DNA from: Uliginosibacterium gangwonense
Lineage (GTDB): Bacteria; Pseudomonadota; Gammaproteobacteria; Burkholderiales; Rhodocyclaceae
NCBI GenBank assembly: GCA_005239635.1
Contig: SBBQ01000078.1
Coordinates: forward strand, 1-64,000
DNA length: 64,000 nucleotides
Direction: 5' to 3'
Shown here in pieces: positions 18,041 to 29,827 of the stretch (positions are counted from its first letter, which is position 1; each line of letters begins with the position of its first letter). Under the pieces are notes generated by a model that had not been told where the DNA came from, did not search any database, and saw nothing but the letters and a program-made list of their open reading frames with translations. Both the position numbers and the translations under genes were made by a program.

Positions 18041-19243
18041 ATGGCAAAGATCAAGCTGACCAAAAGCGTTGTTGACGCGGCTCAGGCACAGACCTGCGAC
18101 CTTGAACTCCGGGACACGATTGTTCCGGGCTTCTTGTGCAAGGTTACACCAAGTGGCCGCAAGGTATTCATGCTTCAGTACCGCACGAACTCCGGCGTGC
18201 GCCGCAAGCCGGCGCTGGGCCAGTTCGGCGAATTGACCGTCGAACAGGCGCGGTCGCTGGCGCAGGACTGGCTAGCCGAAATCCGGCGCGGCGGCGACCC
18301 TGGCCACGACAAGGCCGAGGCCCGGAAAGCGCCGACGGTCAAGGAACTGTGCAGCCGGTTCATGGAAGACCACTCCAAGCTGCACAACAAACCGAGTACG
18401 CAGGCCGGCTACCAGTACCAGATCGACAACTTTGTTATCCCGGCCTTTGGAACCAAAAAGGTCCACGAGGTTACCCGCCACGACATCACTGCGCTGATGA
18501 AGCGTATGGAGAAGTCACCCACGCAGGCCAACCGCGTGCTGTCGCTCGTTCGCAAGATGTTCAACCTGGCCGAACTGTGGGGCTACCGGCCTGACGGTTC
18601 CAATCCTTGCCGCCATGTACCCAAGTACCCGGAGAAAGGCTCGACCCGCCTCATCACCGACGAGCAGATGGCCAGCCTGTTCACCTATCTGGACAAGGCC
18701 GAGGCCGAGGGGCTGGAACATCCGATCTATTTGCTGGCCGTCCGGCTGCAATTCGAGTTCGCGGCCCGCATGTCGGAGATCCTGCTGTTGCAGTGGGACT
18801 GGCTCGACTTGCCCAATGGCCGGGTTGTCTGGCCGGACAGCAAGACGGGCGATATGTCCAAGCCGATGAGCGAGGAAGCCCGCCGGCTGCTGACGAACGC
18901 GCCTCGCTACGGTAATTCGCCCTATGTCTGCCCATCCATCCAGGATCACGACAAGGCACTTAGTCCCCATGCCTACTACTCGGCATGGCGCCGCATCCTC
19001 GATCGTGCCGGCGTGCCGAAGGTCGGCACTCACGGCATCCGCCACCGCTCGGCGACCGACATTGCCAATTCCGGCATCCCCGTCAAGGTCGGCATGGCGC
19101 TGACCGCGCATAAGACCGTGGCGATGTTCATGCGCTACGTCCACACCGAGGACGACCCGGTGCGTAAGGCAGCCGAGTTGGTAGCCAACCGGCGCAAGTC
19201 GGTCGTCGGCACGCGGCAAGAACCCAAAGAGGTGACCGCATGA
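18041..19243 (+). CDS. int: Tyrosine integrase of the ICE
   Basis: A 400-residue phage-type tyrosine recombinase that inserts and excises the element. Domains in order: an N-terminal arm-binding domain of the DUF4102 type (about residues 5-85, with LRDTIVPGFLCKV), a core-binding domain (about 95-180) and the catalytic domain (about 200-385). Catalytic residues seen: Arg in EFAARMSEILLL, His and Arg in GTHGIRHRS, and Tyr in MRYVHTEDD. The usual GH of the second box reads TAH. It reads away from the tRNA fragment 167 bases to its left, the classic position beside attL. Confidence 0.95.
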   Translation: MAKIKLTKSVVDAAQAQTCDLELRDTIVPGFLCKVTPSGRKVFMLQYRTNSGVRRKPALGQFGELTVEQARSLAQDWLAEIRRGGDPGHDKAEARKAPTVKELCSRFMEDHSKLHNKPSTQAGYQYQIDNFVIPAFGTKKVHEVTRHDITALMKRMEKSPTQANRVLSLVRKMFNLAELWGYRPDGSNPCRHVPKYPEKGSTRLITDEQMASLFTYLDKAEAEGLEHPIYLLAVRLQFEFAARMSEILLLQWDWLDLPNGRVVWPDSKTGDMSKPMSEEARRLLTNAPRYGNSPYVCPSIQDHDKALSPHAYYSAWRRILDRAGVPKVGTHGIRHRSATDIANSGIPVKVGMALTAHKTVAMFMRYVHTEDDPVRKAAELVANRRKSVVGTRQEPKEVTA

Positions 19244-22268: not shown

Positions 22269-23057
22269 TCAGTCCGTAGTCGGTTTTGAGGCTCTTTTCC
22301 GCGGGGCCGAAGCAGGCAAAGACGGCAAGCACTCAAACAAGCGTTCTGCATAGACGAACCCCATCCGTCTGACCGCGCCCTGATCGAAATACAGCAGCCA
22401 AGCGGCAAGTAATGCCAGCGAAATGAGCAGTGTCAAGCCTGCGGCAAGCCCCGGATCGGCAAGGTGCACCGGGTCAAAATGGGGAGGAACTACCTGCAGA
22501 ATCTTTGCAATCAGCAATCCGTAGACGATGCCCAGGAGGCACGACACGATACCTGCAGGCTTCATCGCCAGCATATTGCGGTGAAATCCATAGGCGATGT
22601 TCTCTTTCAGCAAGAGTTGCTTGTTGGAACGCGTGAGTTCGCGCAGCCGCTTTGTGGCGCCAACGTAGATGTCGTCTGCCTTGTCAGGACTTGCTGATTC
22701 TTCTTCTGCCGTTGGCATGGCGATGCCCAGCTTGGCCGTGATCGCCGTGTGGTAGCGCTGCTTGCTGACACCATCGAGAAACTTGTCGCGATGGCGTAAC
22801 GCGATGGTTGTCGGCATACCGCCCCACTTTGCAACCAGGATCTCTTCAAGCTTCTTCCCGCGCCCGCGAGCTACGCTCGCAAGCGCATAAATGGCACCGC
22901 AGCCACCAAGCAAGCCGATCACGCCTGTAAGTACCGGGTGCTTTGCGCCGTAGACGCACAGCAAGGGAACGAGCAGCGGCAAAGCGACAAGAAGTCCTGG
23001 AATTACGCGCGCCTTGCGCTCGTAGGGGTCTTTGACCAGTTCAAAAATATTCGTCAT
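22269..23057 (-). CDS. Four-helix membrane protein beside the E2–E1–JAB operon
   Basis: A 262-residue protein with two pairs of membrane helices: about residues 20-38 and 42-62, then 167-190 and 205-227. A cytoplasmic loop of about 100 residues lies between them (KKLEEILVAKWGGMPTTIALRHRDKFLDGV). I do not recognise a named family. It starts six bases after the WYL regulator and is cotranscribed with it, divergent from the MBL–E2–E1–JAB–MBL operon. Small multi-helix membrane proteins are common effectors in defence systems, where they depolarise or break the inner membrane; that role here is inference. Confidence 0.6.
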   Translation of the reverse strand: MTNIFELVKDPYERKARVIPGLLVALPLLVPLLCVYGAKHPVLTGVIGLLGGCGAIYALASVARGRGKKLEEILVAKWGGMPTTIALRHRDKFLDGVSKQRYHTAITAKLGIAMPTAEEESASPDKADDIYVGATKRLRELTRSNKQLLLKENIAYGFHRNMLAMKPAGIVSCLLGIVYGLLIAKILQVVPPHFDPVHLADPGLAAGLTLLISLALLAAWLLYFDQGAVRRMGFVYAERLFECLPSLPASAPRKRASKPTTD

Positions 23058-23063
23058 AGGTGC

Positions 23064-23966
23064 TTAGCTTTGGGCCGATAAGGCATCAATATAGGGTTGA
23101 ATTTCATCGCGGTTCTTCAAAGTGATCTGCTGCGCAAGAGGGTCAGGCGCTTCCTTGGTATGCAAACCCAAACGCCTCAGCGTGTAGTACAAAAACGCTT
23201 GGCGGCATGGAAGTTTGACCTGTCCGTGTTCCATTCCATAGTCCAACTCCAGGACTCGTTTCTTGGCAGCGGGCAAATCGGGGTGCGGTGCAAGCACCAG
23301 CGTCAAAACGGTTTGCCAGTGCGAATCCTGGCTGGCGTCCACTTGGCTCGCTTCGAAGCCGTCGATGCGCAGGATTCGGGCGAGGACGAAATCACTGAAG
23401 CGCTGGCGCTTGTGGCAAAACGCACGCATGTGCCAGCGAAAACCGTCATTGCCAAGGGCGTGGGGAGACAGCAGACGAACCGATTCGTCCATGGACGTCA
23501 TGGACTGGTAGCTCACCCAAATGGCTTCCTGCTGCCGAATTGCTCGCACCACTGCTTCGACGGTCTGCTCATTGATCGTGCGCCAGGGGGACGGCGCCCA
23601 ATCTGTCTCCGGTGCTGAGCCGATAAAGCTGGCCGTCGGTTCCACAATTCCCATCTTTGTGGCCAGTAGCTCCGCTAGATAGCGTTGCGCCGAACTACGT
23701 TGGTAAAGCGGGTGAAAACTCGATGCTGCCGTGTAAGTCTTGGAACTGCGGTCATAAGTTAGGTTGCTCGGGGCCAGCTCCGTGTACTTGGCAATGTCCA
23801 GTGACGCCTGGGGAACAGATATGCCGAAGTGCTCAGTGAGATCCATTCGATTGATGCGCCGCTCCCAGCGCAAACGGAAATCGATGAATTGAAGTCTGCT
23901 CTCCAACCCCCAACTTAGTCCTTTGGGCTCAGCAGGATCGGCGGCAGTGATAGGTGGCTCTTGCAT
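23064..23966 (-). CDS. WYL-domain regulator, CapW/BrxR-like
   Basis: A 300-residue transcription regulator. An N-terminal winged helix (about residues 20-75, with RRINRMDLTEHFGISVPQA and SLDIAKYTEL) is followed by a linker with a FHPLYQRSSAQRYLAEL segment. A WYL domain comes next (about 125-200, IWVSYQSMTSMDESVRLLSP and FRWHMRAFC), then a C-terminal WCX-like extension. The layout matches the CapW/BrxR regulators that repress CBASS, BREX and other phage-defence operons until infection. It is divergent from the MBL operon with 89 bases between, the expected place for its operator. Confidence 0.82.
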   Translation of the reverse strand: MQEPPITAADPAEPKGLSWGLESRLQFIDFRLRWERRINRMDLTEHFGISVPQASLDIAKYTELAPSNLTYDRSSKTYTAASSFHPLYQRSSAQRYLAELLATKMGIVEPTASFIGSAPETDWAPSPWRTINEQTVEAVVRAIRQQEAIWVSYQSMTSMDESVRLLSPHALGNDGFRWHMRAFCHKRQRFSDFVLARILRIDGFEASQVDASQDSHWQTVLTLVLAPHPDLPAAKKRVLELDYGMEHGQVKLPCRQAFLYYTLRRLGLHTKEAPDPLAQQITLKNRDEIQPYIDALSAQS

Positions 23967-24055: not shown

Positions 24056-25249
24056 ATGCCCACAACCATCACGTTTTTTCCCGTCGACAACGGGGACATG
24101 ACCCTCATCAAGTTCGGCGACCTCGACGCAACCACCCTGCTGATCGACGTAAACATCCGGCAAGACGCCGACGACCCTGGGAAGGACGTGCGCGACGTTG
24201 CCAAGGATCTGCGTGATCGGCTGAAGAAGGATGAGAACGGCAGGCCGTATGTCGATGCGTTCCTGCTGAGTCACCCAGACCAAGACCATTGCCGAGGCCT
24301 GACCCGACACTTCCACCTGGGGCCGTTGGACAAGTATCCGGATGACAAGAAGGACGACAAGGACAAGAAGATCGTGATCCGCGAGATGTGGTCGTCCCCG
24401 ATCGTGTTTCGACGCGCCAGCAAGACGCACACCTTGAGCGATGACGCCAAGGCATTCAACACGGAGGCGCGTCGGCGCGTACAACTGAACCGCGACAAGA
24501 ATTTCGTAGTCGGGAACGGCGACCGCATTCAGATCATGGGCGAAGACATCGACGGAAAAACTGATGATCTCACCTCGATTGTGCGGAAGGTGGACACGCG
24601 CTTCTCGACAATCAACGGCAAGAGTTCCGCATTCTTCTCCGCGTTTCTTTTGGCACCCCTGGATGCCCAGGACGACGAAGAAGAGGAAGAGTGCTTGGTC
24701 AAGAACCAGTCCAGCGTGATCCTGAACATCACATTGGCTGCTGACGCACAGACGCCGGATGGCGCGAAATTCCTTACTGGTGGCGATGCCGAGGTATTCA
24801 TCTGGAACCGCCAGTGGCAGCGCCACAAGGCCGAAGCCGATGTGCTTGAATACGACATCATGCAGGCACCGCATCACTGTTCCTGGCATTCGCTGTCCTA
24901 TGACAGTTGGTCCGACTACGGCGAAAAGGCCAAGCTCGATGCCGACGCCCGCAAGGCGCTTTCGCAGACCCGCGACGGCGCCGTCATCGTCGCCAGTTGC
25001 AAGCCGATCGCAGACGACGACAGCGATCCGCCCTGCATACGCGCAAAGCGTGAGTACGTAGCAATCGTGGACGAAGCAAAAGGCGAGTTCTACTGCACGG
25101 GCGAATATCCGAGCGAAAAATCCGTGGAGCCCCTCGTTTTCACCGTCACCGCTCAGGGTGTGCAGCCTCCCTCGAAGAAGGAAGCAGGATCGAAGGCCGC
25201 GGCCGTGATCACCTCCGCGCGCACTCCCATGCCGCACGGGGCATCATGA
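24056..25249 (+). CDS. Metallo-beta-lactamase-fold protein 1 of the ubiquitin-like locus
   Basis: A 397-residue MBL-fold protein of the ComEC/RNase-like branch. Motifs: an opening FFPVDNGDMTLIKFG, the metal motif HPDQDH at residues 73-78, LTGGDAE near residue 242 and APHHCSW near residue 275. Insertions between motifs are long and charged (PDDKKDDKDKKI; DAQDDEEEEE). The last 35 residues are a low-complexity tail rich in Lys, Ala, Ser and Pro ending in PHGAS. The stop codon overlaps the start of the E2–E1–JAB gene by four bases. It could be a nuclease or cyclic-nucleotide hydrolase, and its tail could be the target of the conjugation enzymes; both are inference. Confidence 0.8.
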   Translation: MPTTITFFPVDNGDMTLIKFGDLDATTLLIDVNIRQDADDPGKDVRDVAKDLRDRLKKDENGRPYVDAFLLSHPDQDHCRGLTRHFHLGPLDKYPDDKKDDKDKKIVIREMWSSPIVFRRASKTHTLSDDAKAFNTEARRRVQLNRDKNFVVGNGDRIQIMGEDIDGKTDDLTSIVRKVDTRFSTINGKSSAFFSAFLLAPLDAQDDEEEEECLVKNQSSVILNITLAADAQTPDGAKFLTGGDAEVFIWNRQWQRHKAEADVLEYDIMQAPHHCSWHSLSYDSWSDYGEKAKLDADARKALSQTRDGAVIVASCKPIADDDSDPPCIRAKREYVAIVDEAKGEFYCTGEYPSEKSVEPLVFTVTAQGVQPPSKKEAGSKAAAVITSARTPMPHGAS

Positions 25250-27501
25250 CGGGCGCCATTGCAGACGCACTGCATCAACTTCAGCGGCATAGGGGCCTTG
25301 TCCGCGTTGGCGAGCCAAGGAAAAGTGGTGAATCGACGCAGATTGAAGTCGATGTTGCTGTTGAACTGCCGAGCAGGTCTCGGCGCAATGGCGTATCCGA
25401 GACCGGCGTGCGCTCGGTCGAGACATGCGTTCTGGTATTCGGCAGGGACTGGCCCCTGTCCGCACCCAAGCCATTCTTGCGTGCGGACTTCCCGCTCAAC
25501 TTGCCGCACATTAACCCCCATCGCGAAGGCGAATTGGTCTCGCCTTGCCTGTTCGAGGGGTCGTTGGATGAGCTGTTGCATCGGTTTGGTCTGGACGCCA
25601 TTGTCGATCAGCTAATCGTTTGGCTGCACAAGGCCGCAGCCGGGACATTGCTGGACCTTGAACAGGGATGGGAGCCGACGCGTCGAGACAGTTGTCCTTC
25701 GACCCTTGTATTCAGTGCCGAGAAGGTCGCGGCCGCCGCTCCCGCTGACGGCACGATTTTGATGGTTCCCGCAGGCTACGTGACGATTGATGGCGAGCTA
25801 TACGCCATCATAAATGCCGAACTGACTGCTCAAGTCGATCCTGTGTTCTATCAGGAGGTTCACAACGACAAGTTGGGGAAATGGGGAAATGGCCATACCG
25901 CGGCCTTCATTGCGCGGGCTCCAATGACCGACGGCCACCCGCATGTGGTCGGCCACTATCAACCCGAGACGGTTGTCGATCTCGCGACGTTGCTTGATCG
26001 AGCAGCGGAACTCGGCGTCGATCGTGACGCTTTGGCTCAAGGCTTGGACGGCTACTACGGGCGTTCGATTCTGGATATGCAGCAAGACTCGCGTGGCTGG
26101 ATGCATGGCTTGTATGCGATTGTGATTCTGACTGTTCAAAGACCAGCGTCGCTTGTGGGCTCACCTGGGAGAAGTATCGAGGTATTGCCCTACGTGGTGC
26201 GCTATGAACTCAACGCTCAATCGCTCCTGGAGCGAAACGCCACTGTTCACCCAGCTTTTCACGCACATGCGTTGTCTCCCGAACTGCTGGCAAGAACGTC
26301 CGGCATTCCATCAGCGGTCACATCGCAGCCGCTGGTCATGCTCGGCTGCGGAAGCGTGGGATCGAAAATCGCGATGCAACTGGGGCGAGCGGGTTTCGGC
26401 TCAATGACCTTCGTCGATAACGAGTCCATGTCGCCTCACAACGCGGCCCGGCATGCACTCATTGAGCGGGCATCGGTGCTGGTCCCACCTCGGAAGTCGG
26501 CGCTGATGAAGACGGCCTTTGAGTCGCTGTCGCATCTTCAATCGCGAGCGTTCGACACCGACGCAGTGACTCTCTTGGTCGATGCTGCGCAGTTTGCCGC
26601 AACCGTTCCGCAGGATGCGGCCCTCATCGTGGATGCGACGGCCTCACTTCAGGTGTTGGCCGCAGAAACACAATCAACGGCGCTGCACCAATCCCTTGCG
26701 CGGTTGGCACGGATCGTGATGTATGGCCAGGGGCGCTGTGTCGCGGTTTTGCTCGAAGGGCCTGGTCGCGCCGGTCGGGTTGACGACCTCACGGCATTCT
26801 TGTTCGAGTGCTGTCGGTTTGTGCCGGAACTGCGGGCGTCGATTGCCGGCGATACGTCTGAGCCGACGCGTATTTTTGCGGGCGACAACTGCCGTTCACT
26901 GACGATGCCAATGTCCGATGCCGTTGTTTCGCGTTCTGCTTCATTGGCTGGCCTGCAACTGGAACGCTGGCTTGTTGGCGGACTTCCGAAAGAGGCGACG
27001 CTTTGCGCCGGGGTCTCGGATGCCGAAGGCCTCGGCATGGCATGGACCAGCGCCAGCCTCGGCCCGACCACTGTGCTCGACGTAGCAGACGATGGTGGCT
27101 GGAACATTCGGATTCTGCACCCTGTCGTGCAAGCGATCCATGCTGATGCGCTGCACTGGGGCGCTTTGGAAACAGGCGGAGCCTTGGTCGGTCGCATCTC
27201 GTTTGAGAATCGAACCATCACCATTGCGGGCATCGTGGATGCGCCGCCTGACAGCATTCGGGAGGCCGCCCGCTTTATCCTCGGGACGAATGGACTTGTT
27301 CAAAATTTGCGCACGGCGAATGGAACCTCTTTGGGGTATTTGGCCTTCATCGGAACTTGGCACAGCCACCCGAAAGGCGGCGCACATTCGGGCATAGACC
27401 GAAATACATTGCGCAGTATTGCCGAGGATGCTGGCGGCCTTCCCGCTGTGTCGTTGGTATGGACTCCGACGGGACTCAGGTGTGCGGTGGATCGTTGGTA
27501 G
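25246..27501 (+). CDS. E2–E1–JAB triple-domain ubiquitin-like conjugation protein
   Basis: A 751-residue fusion of three modules. Residues 1-140 look like a prokaryotic E2 (UBC fold) with FGRDWPLSAPKPFLR, INPHREGELVSPCL and candidate active cysteine C101. After a linker of about 200 residues, an E1/ThiF-type adenylation domain runs from about 355 to 600, with the nucleotide loop LGCGSVGSK (366-374) and FVDNESMSPHNAARH; CC in FECCRF or C in GRCVAVL may be the E1 cysteine. Residues 625-751 are a JAB/JAMM metallopeptidase with E642 (ALETGGALVG) and HSHP-x5-S-x2-D (H706, H708, S715, D718). The protein thus has activating, conjugating and deconjugating parts in one chain. No ubiquitin-like partner is encoded nearby. 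Confidence 0.88.
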   Translation: MTGAIADALHQLQRHRGLVRVGEPRKSGESTQIEVDVAVELPSRSRRNGVSETGVRSVETCVLVFGRDWPLSAPKPFLRADFPLNLPHINPHREGELVSPCLFEGSLDELLHRFGLDAIVDQLIVWLHKAAAGTLLDLEQGWEPTRRDSCPSTLVFSAEKVAAAAPADGTILMVPAGYVTIDGELYAIINAELTAQVDPVFYQEVHNDKLGKWGNGHTAAFIARAPMTDGHPHVVGHYQPETVVDLATLLDRAAELGVDRDALAQGLDGYYGRSILDMQQDSRGWMHGLYAIVILTVQRPASLVGSPGRSIEVLPYVVRYELNAQSLLERNATVHPAFHAHALSPELLARTSGIPSAVTSQPLVMLGCGSVGSKIAMQLGRAGFGSMTFVDNESMSPHNAARHALIERASVLVPPRKSALMKTAFESLSHLQSRAFDTDAVTLLVDAAQFAATVPQDAALIVDATASLQVLAAETQSTALHQSLARLARIVMYGQGRCVAVLLEGPGRAGRVDDLTAFLFECCRFVPELRASIAGDTSEPTRIFAGDNCRSLTMPMSDAVVSRSASLAGLQLERWLVGGLPKEATLCAGVSDAEGLGMAWTSASLGPTTVLDVADDGGWNIRILHPVVQAIHADALHWGALETGGALVGRISFENRTITIAGIVDAPPDSIREAARFILGTNGLVQNLRTANGTSLGYLAFIGTWHSHPKGGAHSGIDRNTLRSIAEDAGGLPAVSLVWTPTGLRCAVDRW

Positions 27502-27546: not shown

Positions 27547-28617
27547 ATGGCCGACTACTTCGAGATCGATTTTCTTGGCGTCGAAACAGCGAAAAGCGGG
27601 GATGCGATCACGCTGCGCTATTCGGTGAATGGCACGGAGGGCGTGCACGTCGTTGACGGTGGGTATCTGGATACGGGAGACCAGATCGTCGAGCATCTGA
27701 AGACGTACTATGGAACAACAGTCATCGACCATGTGATCCTCACACACCCCGATCGCGATCACGCTAATGGGCTGCGAAAAGTCCTGGAGCAATGCACGGT
27801 CAAAAATCTTTGGATCAACAGGCCGTGGATCTATGCAGCTCAGTTGATTGATCGATTCGAGACCTATGAATCAGTTGAAGCACTGAGACGGAAATTGCGC
27901 TCCATCTACGATGCCACGGCAATTCTTGAGGATCTTGCGGTTGAGAAGGGAATTCCAATCCATGCCCCTCTTCAGGGGCAGAACATCGGTCCCTTCATGG
28001 TGATGGCACCCACACTAGATCGCTACTTCGACCTGATCGTGGACTCCGCGAAGACACCGGAAGCTGTTGAAGAAAGTGTTTTGGATAGCGCACTGAGCAG
28101 CATATTCCGGGCGGTGAAGGCCGCGACCGCCTACATCAAGTCCCTGTGGGGCGAGGAACATTTTCCGCCGGAGCCTACCAGTCGTGAAAATGAAATGAGT
28201 GTGGTCCAGTCGGCTGTTCTGAACGGTCATCGTGTCATGCTTACTGGCGATGCCGGGCGTGAAGCGCTGCAAGAGGTTATTGACTACGCGCCTTTTGCCG
28301 GACTCGCGTTGCCAGGCATTCGGTATTTCCAGGTGCCTCATCATGGTGGGCGGCACAATGTTTCGACTGAAATCCTGGATCAACTGGTCGGGCCACGATT
28401 GGACAGCATGCCGGACAAGCATACTTGGAACGCCATATGCAGCTCCGCCAAGGAGGATGAGGATCATCCTCGGAAGTCGGTGATTCGTGCTGTATTACAC
28501 CGGGGTGGGCACTGGGCGGCAACCGAAAGCAAGAATCTCCGCATCGGGGCGGGCATTACCCGCGATGGCTGGGTATCAATTCCTCAAGCAGAGTACCCCG
28601 AAGAGCAAGAGAGTTGA
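27547..28617 (+). CDS. Metallo-beta-lactamase-fold protein 2 of the ubiquitin-like locus
   Basis: A 356-residue MBL-fold protein, distinct from protein 1. It opens with YFEIDFLGVETAKSGDAI, has VVDGGY, the metal motif HPDRDH (residues 67-72), LTGDAG near residue 235 and VPHHGGRHN near residue 260. The set of motifs is complete, so it should bind two metals. It ends without a glycine tail (EEQES). It starts 45 bases after the E2–E1–JAB gene and closes the operon. Substrate unknown; related proteins cut nucleic acids or small nucleotides. Confidence 0.8.
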   Translation: MADYFEIDFLGVETAKSGDAITLRYSVNGTEGVHVVDGGYLDTGDQIVEHLKTYYGTTVIDHVILTHPDRDHANGLRKVLEQCTVKNLWINRPWIYAAQLIDRFETYESVEALRRKLRSIYDATAILEDLAVEKGIPIHAPLQGQNIGPFMVMAPTLDRYFDLIVDSAKTPEAVEESVLDSALSSIFRAVKAATAYIKSLWGEEHFPPEPTSRENEMSVVQSAVLNGHRVMLTGDAGREALQEVIDYAPFAGLALPGIRYFQVPHHGGRHNVSTEILDQLVGPRLDSMPDKHTWNAICSSAKEDEDHPRKSVIRAVLHRGGHWAATESKNLRIGAGITRDGWVSIPQAEYPEEQES

Positions 28618-28787: not shown

Positions 28788-28810
28788 TAACTACCAGGTA
28801 CTTGCAATCT

Positions 28811-29827
28811 ATGCATGCGATTTCGCTCTCTGAGTTTCCAATTTCTGTGCTCGAACTCCATACATGGTCGTGGTGGCGAAGGTTTTGGAAACGACCGCCA
28901 GCGCTTGTACGGAAACGTTGTGAAGCTTGGTGTGAGCTATTGGGGTTCAGGGAGGCGGCAGGAAAAGGTGTGTGCTTCAACACTCCAAAATCAAAGATTT
29001 TTGATGACTCGCGCCGTCGATGGGACATCCTGGACAATCTTGACCGCAGCAACTTTGCTTTGCGGAGTCGCTTTCCGGTCTCAGCCTGGGGCGCTAAGGA
29101 GGCTTTCCAAAGTCCTCATGGATCGCTAGTGCAAGTGGCGATGGTGCCTGACTTTGAATGCGACGCAAGCGATATAGAGGGAATCTCCGCTAGTAAGTCG
29201 GCAGATATGCCACACGAAAGTGTGGACGTTTTTGGTGCCTACTATATTGATGAGCAGAATCGATTTGCTAGAAAAGGAAAGCCCCCGCTCAGACTGGATG
29301 ATGCAAGCTTAAAAGAGCTTTGTTCTCATGGCGAGATCAGGCTACTGCACGGACGTGGCTCAGACACGTTTAGCGTGCGAGCTTGGGATGGCCGTTTGTT
29401 CATTGATAACAGTGGTGGTTCTCACCATCTCGCAGGTGCCGTGCATGTTGCCAAGCGCATTGGCGCGCGAATTCCCCTGGCCTCGAAACTCTATCTCTAC
29501 CGGCTCAACCATTTGACTGTGCAATGGCTGCTCGATGGGTTTCATCTGCTATTGCTCCCCAAGGATTTGGCCGGGCAGATACTATGGTCTGTGAAGAGTT
29601 TGGTAGGTTCTGGTTCGAACATGGAGTTCCCACCTGTACTGGCCAAAGGCACGCTTTTGGCATTCCCTCGGGGTTCGCAAATCGCCGAGTGCGTGATGGC
29701 AGAACTATTGAGTCAGGGGCACCACGATTTGGGCAATGATTTGAGGGAGGCGCTGACTGCGCAACAGCGGTTCTTGGCTGAATCGACGACTCCATGGACA
29801 AAACTATTTTCATCTCCAACCTGCTGA
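28811..29827 (+). CDS. Uncharacterised protein, possibly DUF6685
   Basis: A protein of about 338 residues with no catalytic motif I can name. The segment VRAWDGRLFIDNSGGSHHLAG (two parts: VRAWDGRLF and IDNSGGSHHLAG, about residues 195-215) faintly recalls the G-H-H/R-LAA motif of ParB/Srx-like domains and a DUF6685 family that I recall only vaguely. Base composition is clearly lower in GC than the ICE backbone. The gene is bracketed by a direct repeat (28672-28787 and 29906-30037), so it looks like a separately acquired cargo gene. I chose the ATG at 28811; a TTG nine bases upstream is possible. Confidence 0.55.
   Translation: MHAISLSEFPISVLELHTWSWWRRFWKRPPALVRKRCEAWCELLGFREAAGKGVCFNTPKSKIFDDSRRRWDILDNLDRSNFALRSRFPVSAWGAKEAFQSPHGSLVQVAMVPDFECDASDIEGISASKSADMPHESVDVFGAYYIDEQNRFARKGKPPLRLDDASLKELCSHGEIRLLHGRGSDTFSVRAWDGRLFIDNSGGSHHLAGAVHVAKRIGARIPLASKLYLYRLNHLTVQWLLDGFHLLLLPKDLAGQILWSVKSLVGSGSNMEFPPVLAKGTLLAFPRGSQIAECVMAELLSQGHHDLGNDLREALTAQQRFLAESTTPWTKLFSSPTC

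Follow-up and report, generated by a model that had tools for sequence, protein, structure and literature searches.

The metallo-beta-lactamase-fold protein MBL1 (24056..25249, + strand, 397 aa) is very likely the substrate of the adjoining E2-E1-JAB protein (hereafter the E enzyme), conjugated through Gly395 in a bond that the JAB part reverses, the chemistry itself being inferred. Its final Gly is conserved across phyla and changes with the ligase, and therefore MBL1 is probably attached to other molecules in the fashion of ubiquitin; the conjugation is an inference and has not been shown. Observed directly are the tail motif, the selection on the tail, its covariation with the enzyme, the intact active sites and a Cap2-like fold. 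A first-pass annotation of the window (the whole stretch of 64,000 nucleotides analysed here) had named MBL1 the best candidate for the modified partner, a choice supported by the conservation of the tail, its covariation with the E enzyme and the intact catalytic residues.

Both genes score far over the curated cut-offs of NCBIfam (June 2026). MBL1 reaches 445 bits against NF058524 (cut-off 220), and the adjacent E2-E1-JAB triple fusion (25246..27501, + strand, 751 aa; 6A-MBL cap2_3, with the Pfam domains Prok-E2_A, ThiF and Prok-JAB) reaches 553 bits against NF058523 (cut-off 320). Going by these sequence models, the pair is the anti-phage 6A-MBL pair of NCBIfam, the anti-phage activity of the window pair being inferred. 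The two-gene make-up, MBL plus E2-E1-JAB, is the same as in the 6A-MBL system (NF058524/NF058523), which Iyer et al. 2006 described as operon type 6a, usually two genes encoding a triple-module protein and an MBL (PMC1779556). The MBL1 stop overlaps the start of the E enzyme by 4 bases (ATGA at 25246-25249), as had been stated at first pass, and an E enzyme of the Prok-E2_A or E2_B type adjoins every complete MBL1 inspected with enough flanking DNA.

The AF2 model of MBL1 has a mean pLDDT of 90.9 and comes closest, among solved structures, to the MBL domain of ComEC (9ic4, E-value 5.6e-13); the metal-site residues H73, D75, D77, H78, D244, H273 and H274 are invariant in the homologue alignment. 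Judged by this structural match MBL1 has an MBL fold, not the beta-grasp fold of ubiquitin-like modifiers. For the E enzyme (AF2 pLDDT 91) the top PDB match is Cap2-CdnD02 (7to3, E-value 1.1e-24); its JAB part matches Cap3 (9ild) and BubCD is also found among the matches. C101 of the E2 part, C549 of the E1 part, the GxGxxG at 367-372, D391 and E642 are invariant in the alignment of the enzyme, and the JAB (JAMM) residues H706, H708, S715 and D718 are conserved.

According to pLDDT and pN/pS, a disordered C-terminal tail occupies about residues 372-397 of MBL1 (25169..25246, + strand), comprising a variable Ala/Ser/Lys linker and the ending PMPHG-AS; pLDDT is below 50 at residues 376-391 and 393-397, residue 392 excepted. 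A disordered tail past the fold had been proposed in the first-pass annotation and is retained here; its length of 35 residues, however, is reduced by the AF2 model to about 22-27. The residues VTAQG, which had been placed beyond the fold, are still part of it because the last strands lie at 360-365 and 368-370 and the fold is over only near residue 370. The region of the putative conjugation motif spans residues 389-395 (25220..25240, + strand), with the Gly395 codon at 25238-25240, and is followed by Ala-Ser (25241..25246, + strand), a possible extension removed by the JAB part and variable in homologues.

It had further been suggested that a short motif shared by the C-termini of MBL homologues would favour conjugation and that a lack of C-terminal conservation, or many homologues stopping right after the fold, would refute it. 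On comparison a short C-terminal motif was found to be strongly conserved, and no intact homologue of the refuting kind was found. The 77 loci were collected via internal peptides, none of them taken from the tail. All 51 non-redundant relatives (cores less than 80% identical, down to about 25%, from several phyla) end in [HAYF]G plus 0-6 residues or in Tyr-Ala, Gly or Ala being the final residue in 28 of the 51. When [HAYF]G anywhere in the last 8 residues, or a final YA, is counted as a hit, shuffling the last 35 residues 2000 times gives 9.8 proteins on average and 21 at most, against the 51 observed. A stricter motif, HG or RAG in the last 8 residues, is present in 33/38 proteins with less than 80% core identity (shuffle null: mean 1.05, maximum 6), and the remaining five have a YA end (3) or YG plus 1-3 residues (2). 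Typically a homologue ends in ..P-x-PHG or ..PRAG plus 0-6 residues after a linker of variable length and sequence, and G395 is nearly invariant in the alignment. The pattern was written post hoc, with the alignment already seen, and the 51 proteins share kinship; it also fits all loci found without reference to the tail, through the E enzyme, viral contigs or plasmids. Each of the five loci found via the E enzyme instead of the MBL carries the motif, the MBL of one locus found in this way (L086), only 25% identical, ends in ..PMRAG, and the pattern recurs in viral-contig or plasmid relatives from E. coli, Emticicia, Rhizobium, Rhodococcus, Bradyrhizobium and Agrobacterium.

An apparent MBL-E fusion (L034) was discarded as a frameshift, the other frame reading TPMPHGSWI-stop, and a model of tandem MBL-E through in-frame read-through (L032) was rejected, since the E rows had been misplaced in the mixed alignment and no more than seven loci are in frame. 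In another viral-contig relative (L120:587-4618), an MBL ending in VGFGD adjoins a 1343-codon frame with weak similarity to the E enzyme.

The phylogenies indicate that the type of tail tracks the tree of the E enzyme and not that of the MBL. Three changes of tail class are needed on the E tree, which is the minimum, as against five on the tree of MBL cores with tails removed; in the 48-row set each tail class forms one clade on the former and not on the latter, if L081, whose tail PRAGTHGLR holds both HG and RAG, is taken as RAG. RAG tails are found on two distant MBL clades, and the E proteins of these form one clade. The clearest case is L062, where the MBL core nests among HG-type MBLs (support 83/88) and yet the tail ends in YA; here the partner is a Prok-E2_B/ThiF protein resembling Cap2, and the JAB is a protein of its own (Pfam-confirmed). 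The tails of three further loci with a Prok-E2_B/ThiF partner (L070, L071 and L119) likewise end in Tyr-Ala. Inheritance of the whole operon could explain part of this covariation, and some branches of the MBL tree are long (L086, L074).

Covariation with the E enzyme requires binding only, and conserved short C-terminal motifs can serve as docking signals or degrons. The end of the tail might then be a non-covalent docking peptide or degron that binds the E enzyme or an effector without being activated or conjugated. We regard this as unlikely, however, given that the terminal Gly or Ala adjoins an E1-E2-JAB protein that has kept all its catalytic residues and that type II CBASS, for which conjugation has been demonstrated, follows the same rule (PMC10097602). 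There, conservation of Gly or Ala at the CD-NTase terminus is confined to operons with Cap2 and Cap3, and Cap2 forms a thioester with the terminal residue (PMC10097602).

A ubiquitin-like protein (Ubl) encoded elsewhere could also be the modifier, with MBL1 merely its target or an effector. The Bil and Bub ubiquitination-like operons share the E1, E2 and JAB parts and use a beta-grasp Ubl, and Bub structures appear among the PDB matches mentioned above; we nevertheless consider this quite improbable. As the first-pass annotation had stated, no such protein was identified among the inspected genes beside the pair, the rest of the genome being outside the scope of the analysis; the E enzyme is closest to Cap2, which acts on a non-Ubl, and the terminal Gly of the MBL and its covariation would be left unexplained. 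MBL2, the second MBL (27547..28617, + strand; PADLOC PDC-M48B, 506 bits), is a recurrent neighbour without a conjugation tail; as the conjugated protein it was ruled out, there being no conserved Gly tail, and the [HAYF]G motif is absent from the C-termini of nine divergent MBL2 homologues.

Among 35 closer homologues of MBL1, pN/pS is 0.14 for the motif, 0.16 for the core, 0.36 for the linker and 0.61 for the two residues after the Gly; linker and post-Gly residues are relaxed, and the motif is as constrained as the folded core. The Gly codon (GGG, GGA, GGC or GGT) and the gap to the start of the E gene vary between loci, and the constraint is therefore on the protein and not on a ribosome-binding site. 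In the window, the overlapping stop and the CACGGGG just upstream of the start might suggest that the conserved bases serve the translation of the E gene, by coupling or by ribosome binding, and are not a protein motif. This reading is practically untenable, being refuted by the synonymous variation of both His and Gly codons, the differing distance to the E start, the retention of the motif in non-overlapping loci where the E gene has an AGGAG of its own and begins at least several bases further on (L041, L044, L048-L050), and a protein-level constraint equal to that in the fold.

If MBL1 is conjugated by its E enzyme, the JAB part would probably trim the tail to the Gly wherever an extension exists, removing Ala-Ser in the window; the E1 part would adenylate the tail at Gly395, take MBL1 as a thioester on Cys549 and hand it to Cys101 of the E2 part, which would join it through Gly395 to an amine of an unidentified target, and the JAB part would reverse this bond. 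Conjugation would probably switch the enzyme on or relocate it, as for the CD-NTase in type II CBASS, and the neighbouring membrane protein, or a patatin in some relatives, would probably be the killing effector. The thioester, the adduct, the trimming, the target and the activity of MBL1 are all inferred. Since the Gly is not the final residue in the window, processing must be assumed, which counts against the proposal.

Divergent from the pair lie a WYL-domain regulator (23064..23966, - strand; WYL PF13280), CapW-like by position and with homologues in 44/77 loci, and a four-TM membrane protein of the family TM-I (22269..23057, - strand), a candidate third component or effector on the basis of its recurrence (homologues in 49/77 loci). 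In most loci a small membrane protein adjoins the pair, directly downstream of the E gene, directly upstream of MBL1 or, as in the window, divergent by the WYL gene; TM-I is often directly downstream of the E gene in other loci. By BLAST the collected membrane proteins fall into two main families, with 20 (TM-I) and 15 members, transmembrane calls being made by a simple hydropathy threshold and genes in unannotated loci called as the longest ORF. The TM-I protein of the window has no Pfam, NCBIfam or PADLOC family match, and in the members scanned neither family has a Pfam or PADLOC match over cut-offs. A patatin-like phospholipase is encoded directly downstream of E2-E1-JAB in L124:7879-9090 and L126:7858-9009, and a split patatin-like frame, judged by eye, has the same place in L123:7876-9064.

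A membrane protein or patatin adjoins the pair in about 38/51 loci, its effector role being inferred. With such a third gene usually beside the pair, MBL1 would hold the place of the CD-NTase in a system like type II CBASS. CapW has been described beside CBASS, and in one such system a likely effector lies on the same side as capW (PMC9122588); by analogy the layout with a divergent WYL gene repeats that of CBASS, MBL1 standing where the CD-NTase would be. Common to both are a single Gly or Ala terminus on a non-beta-grasp enzyme (met in 51/51 MBLs, with 0-6 extra residues), a Cap2-like E2-E1 and a JAB whose catalytic residues are present in the window, a CapW-type regulator and, by position alone, a patatin or membrane protein where an effector would be expected. 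The 6A-MBL loci differ, however, in that no CD-NTase was identified, either among the main genes surrounding the window pair or in the other neighbourhoods inspected, and in that the enzyme with the tail is a metallo-hydrolase; moreover, E2, E1 and JAB form one chain in most of them, and the tails often carry 1-6 residues past the Gly.

In a 2025 review Cap2 was the only known system to activate a non-beta-grasp protein, others being predicted (PMC12355090). MBL1 would be a second, specific instance, which can be tested at Gly395; if this is true, ubiquitin-type conjugation of whole enzymes would be a general control of bacterial immunity and not a peculiarity of CBASS. A more speculative extension, which we put forward as possible but doubtful, is that MBL1 replaces the CD-NTase in a CBASS-like system of three parts. 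As a metallo-hydrolase under the control of conjugation it would produce or destroy a signal, either a small molecule or a nucleic acid, that gates a membrane effector (one of the two unnamed TM families, or patatin); it would then represent a second class of non-beta-grasp protein that is itself the modifier, with a precursor tail matured by the JAB part. The third component named here is missing from the operon descriptions found. Those found for operon 6a mention neither a tail motif nor a substrate nor a third gene, the source behind the NCBIfam name not being among them, and no dedicated 6A-MBL paper was found in the literature search; part of the findings on the tail and the third gene may already be known from the publication behind that name.

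Several further observations concern the neighbourhood. Examples of TM-I beside 6A-MBL pairs are seen in L057, L060, L063 and L082, and elsewhere a second, unrelated TM family (L041, L045, L053 type) holds its place. MBL2 is also found near 6A-MBL in the divergent loci L040, L054, L058, L081, L115 and L125, and several times adjoins a TM-I protein in place of M48A. The DUF6685 protein 3' of MBL2 (28802-29827, + strand) is restricted to a subset of near-identical islands. The window positions 18041-19243 and 42892-63963 encode a tyrosine integrase, a DUF3363 relaxase, a TraG-type coupling protein, a VirB11-like ATPase, a CagE/TrbE/VirB-type ATPase and TrbL, and the system looks to be carried by an integrative conjugative element. 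Neither the phage records searched nor the genome DNA of E. coli gave a match. Near-identical copies of the system are present in Acinetobacter, Bordetella, Stutzerimonas and others, and relatives occur on many conjugative plasmids, Klebsiella accounting for 127/248 matching records.
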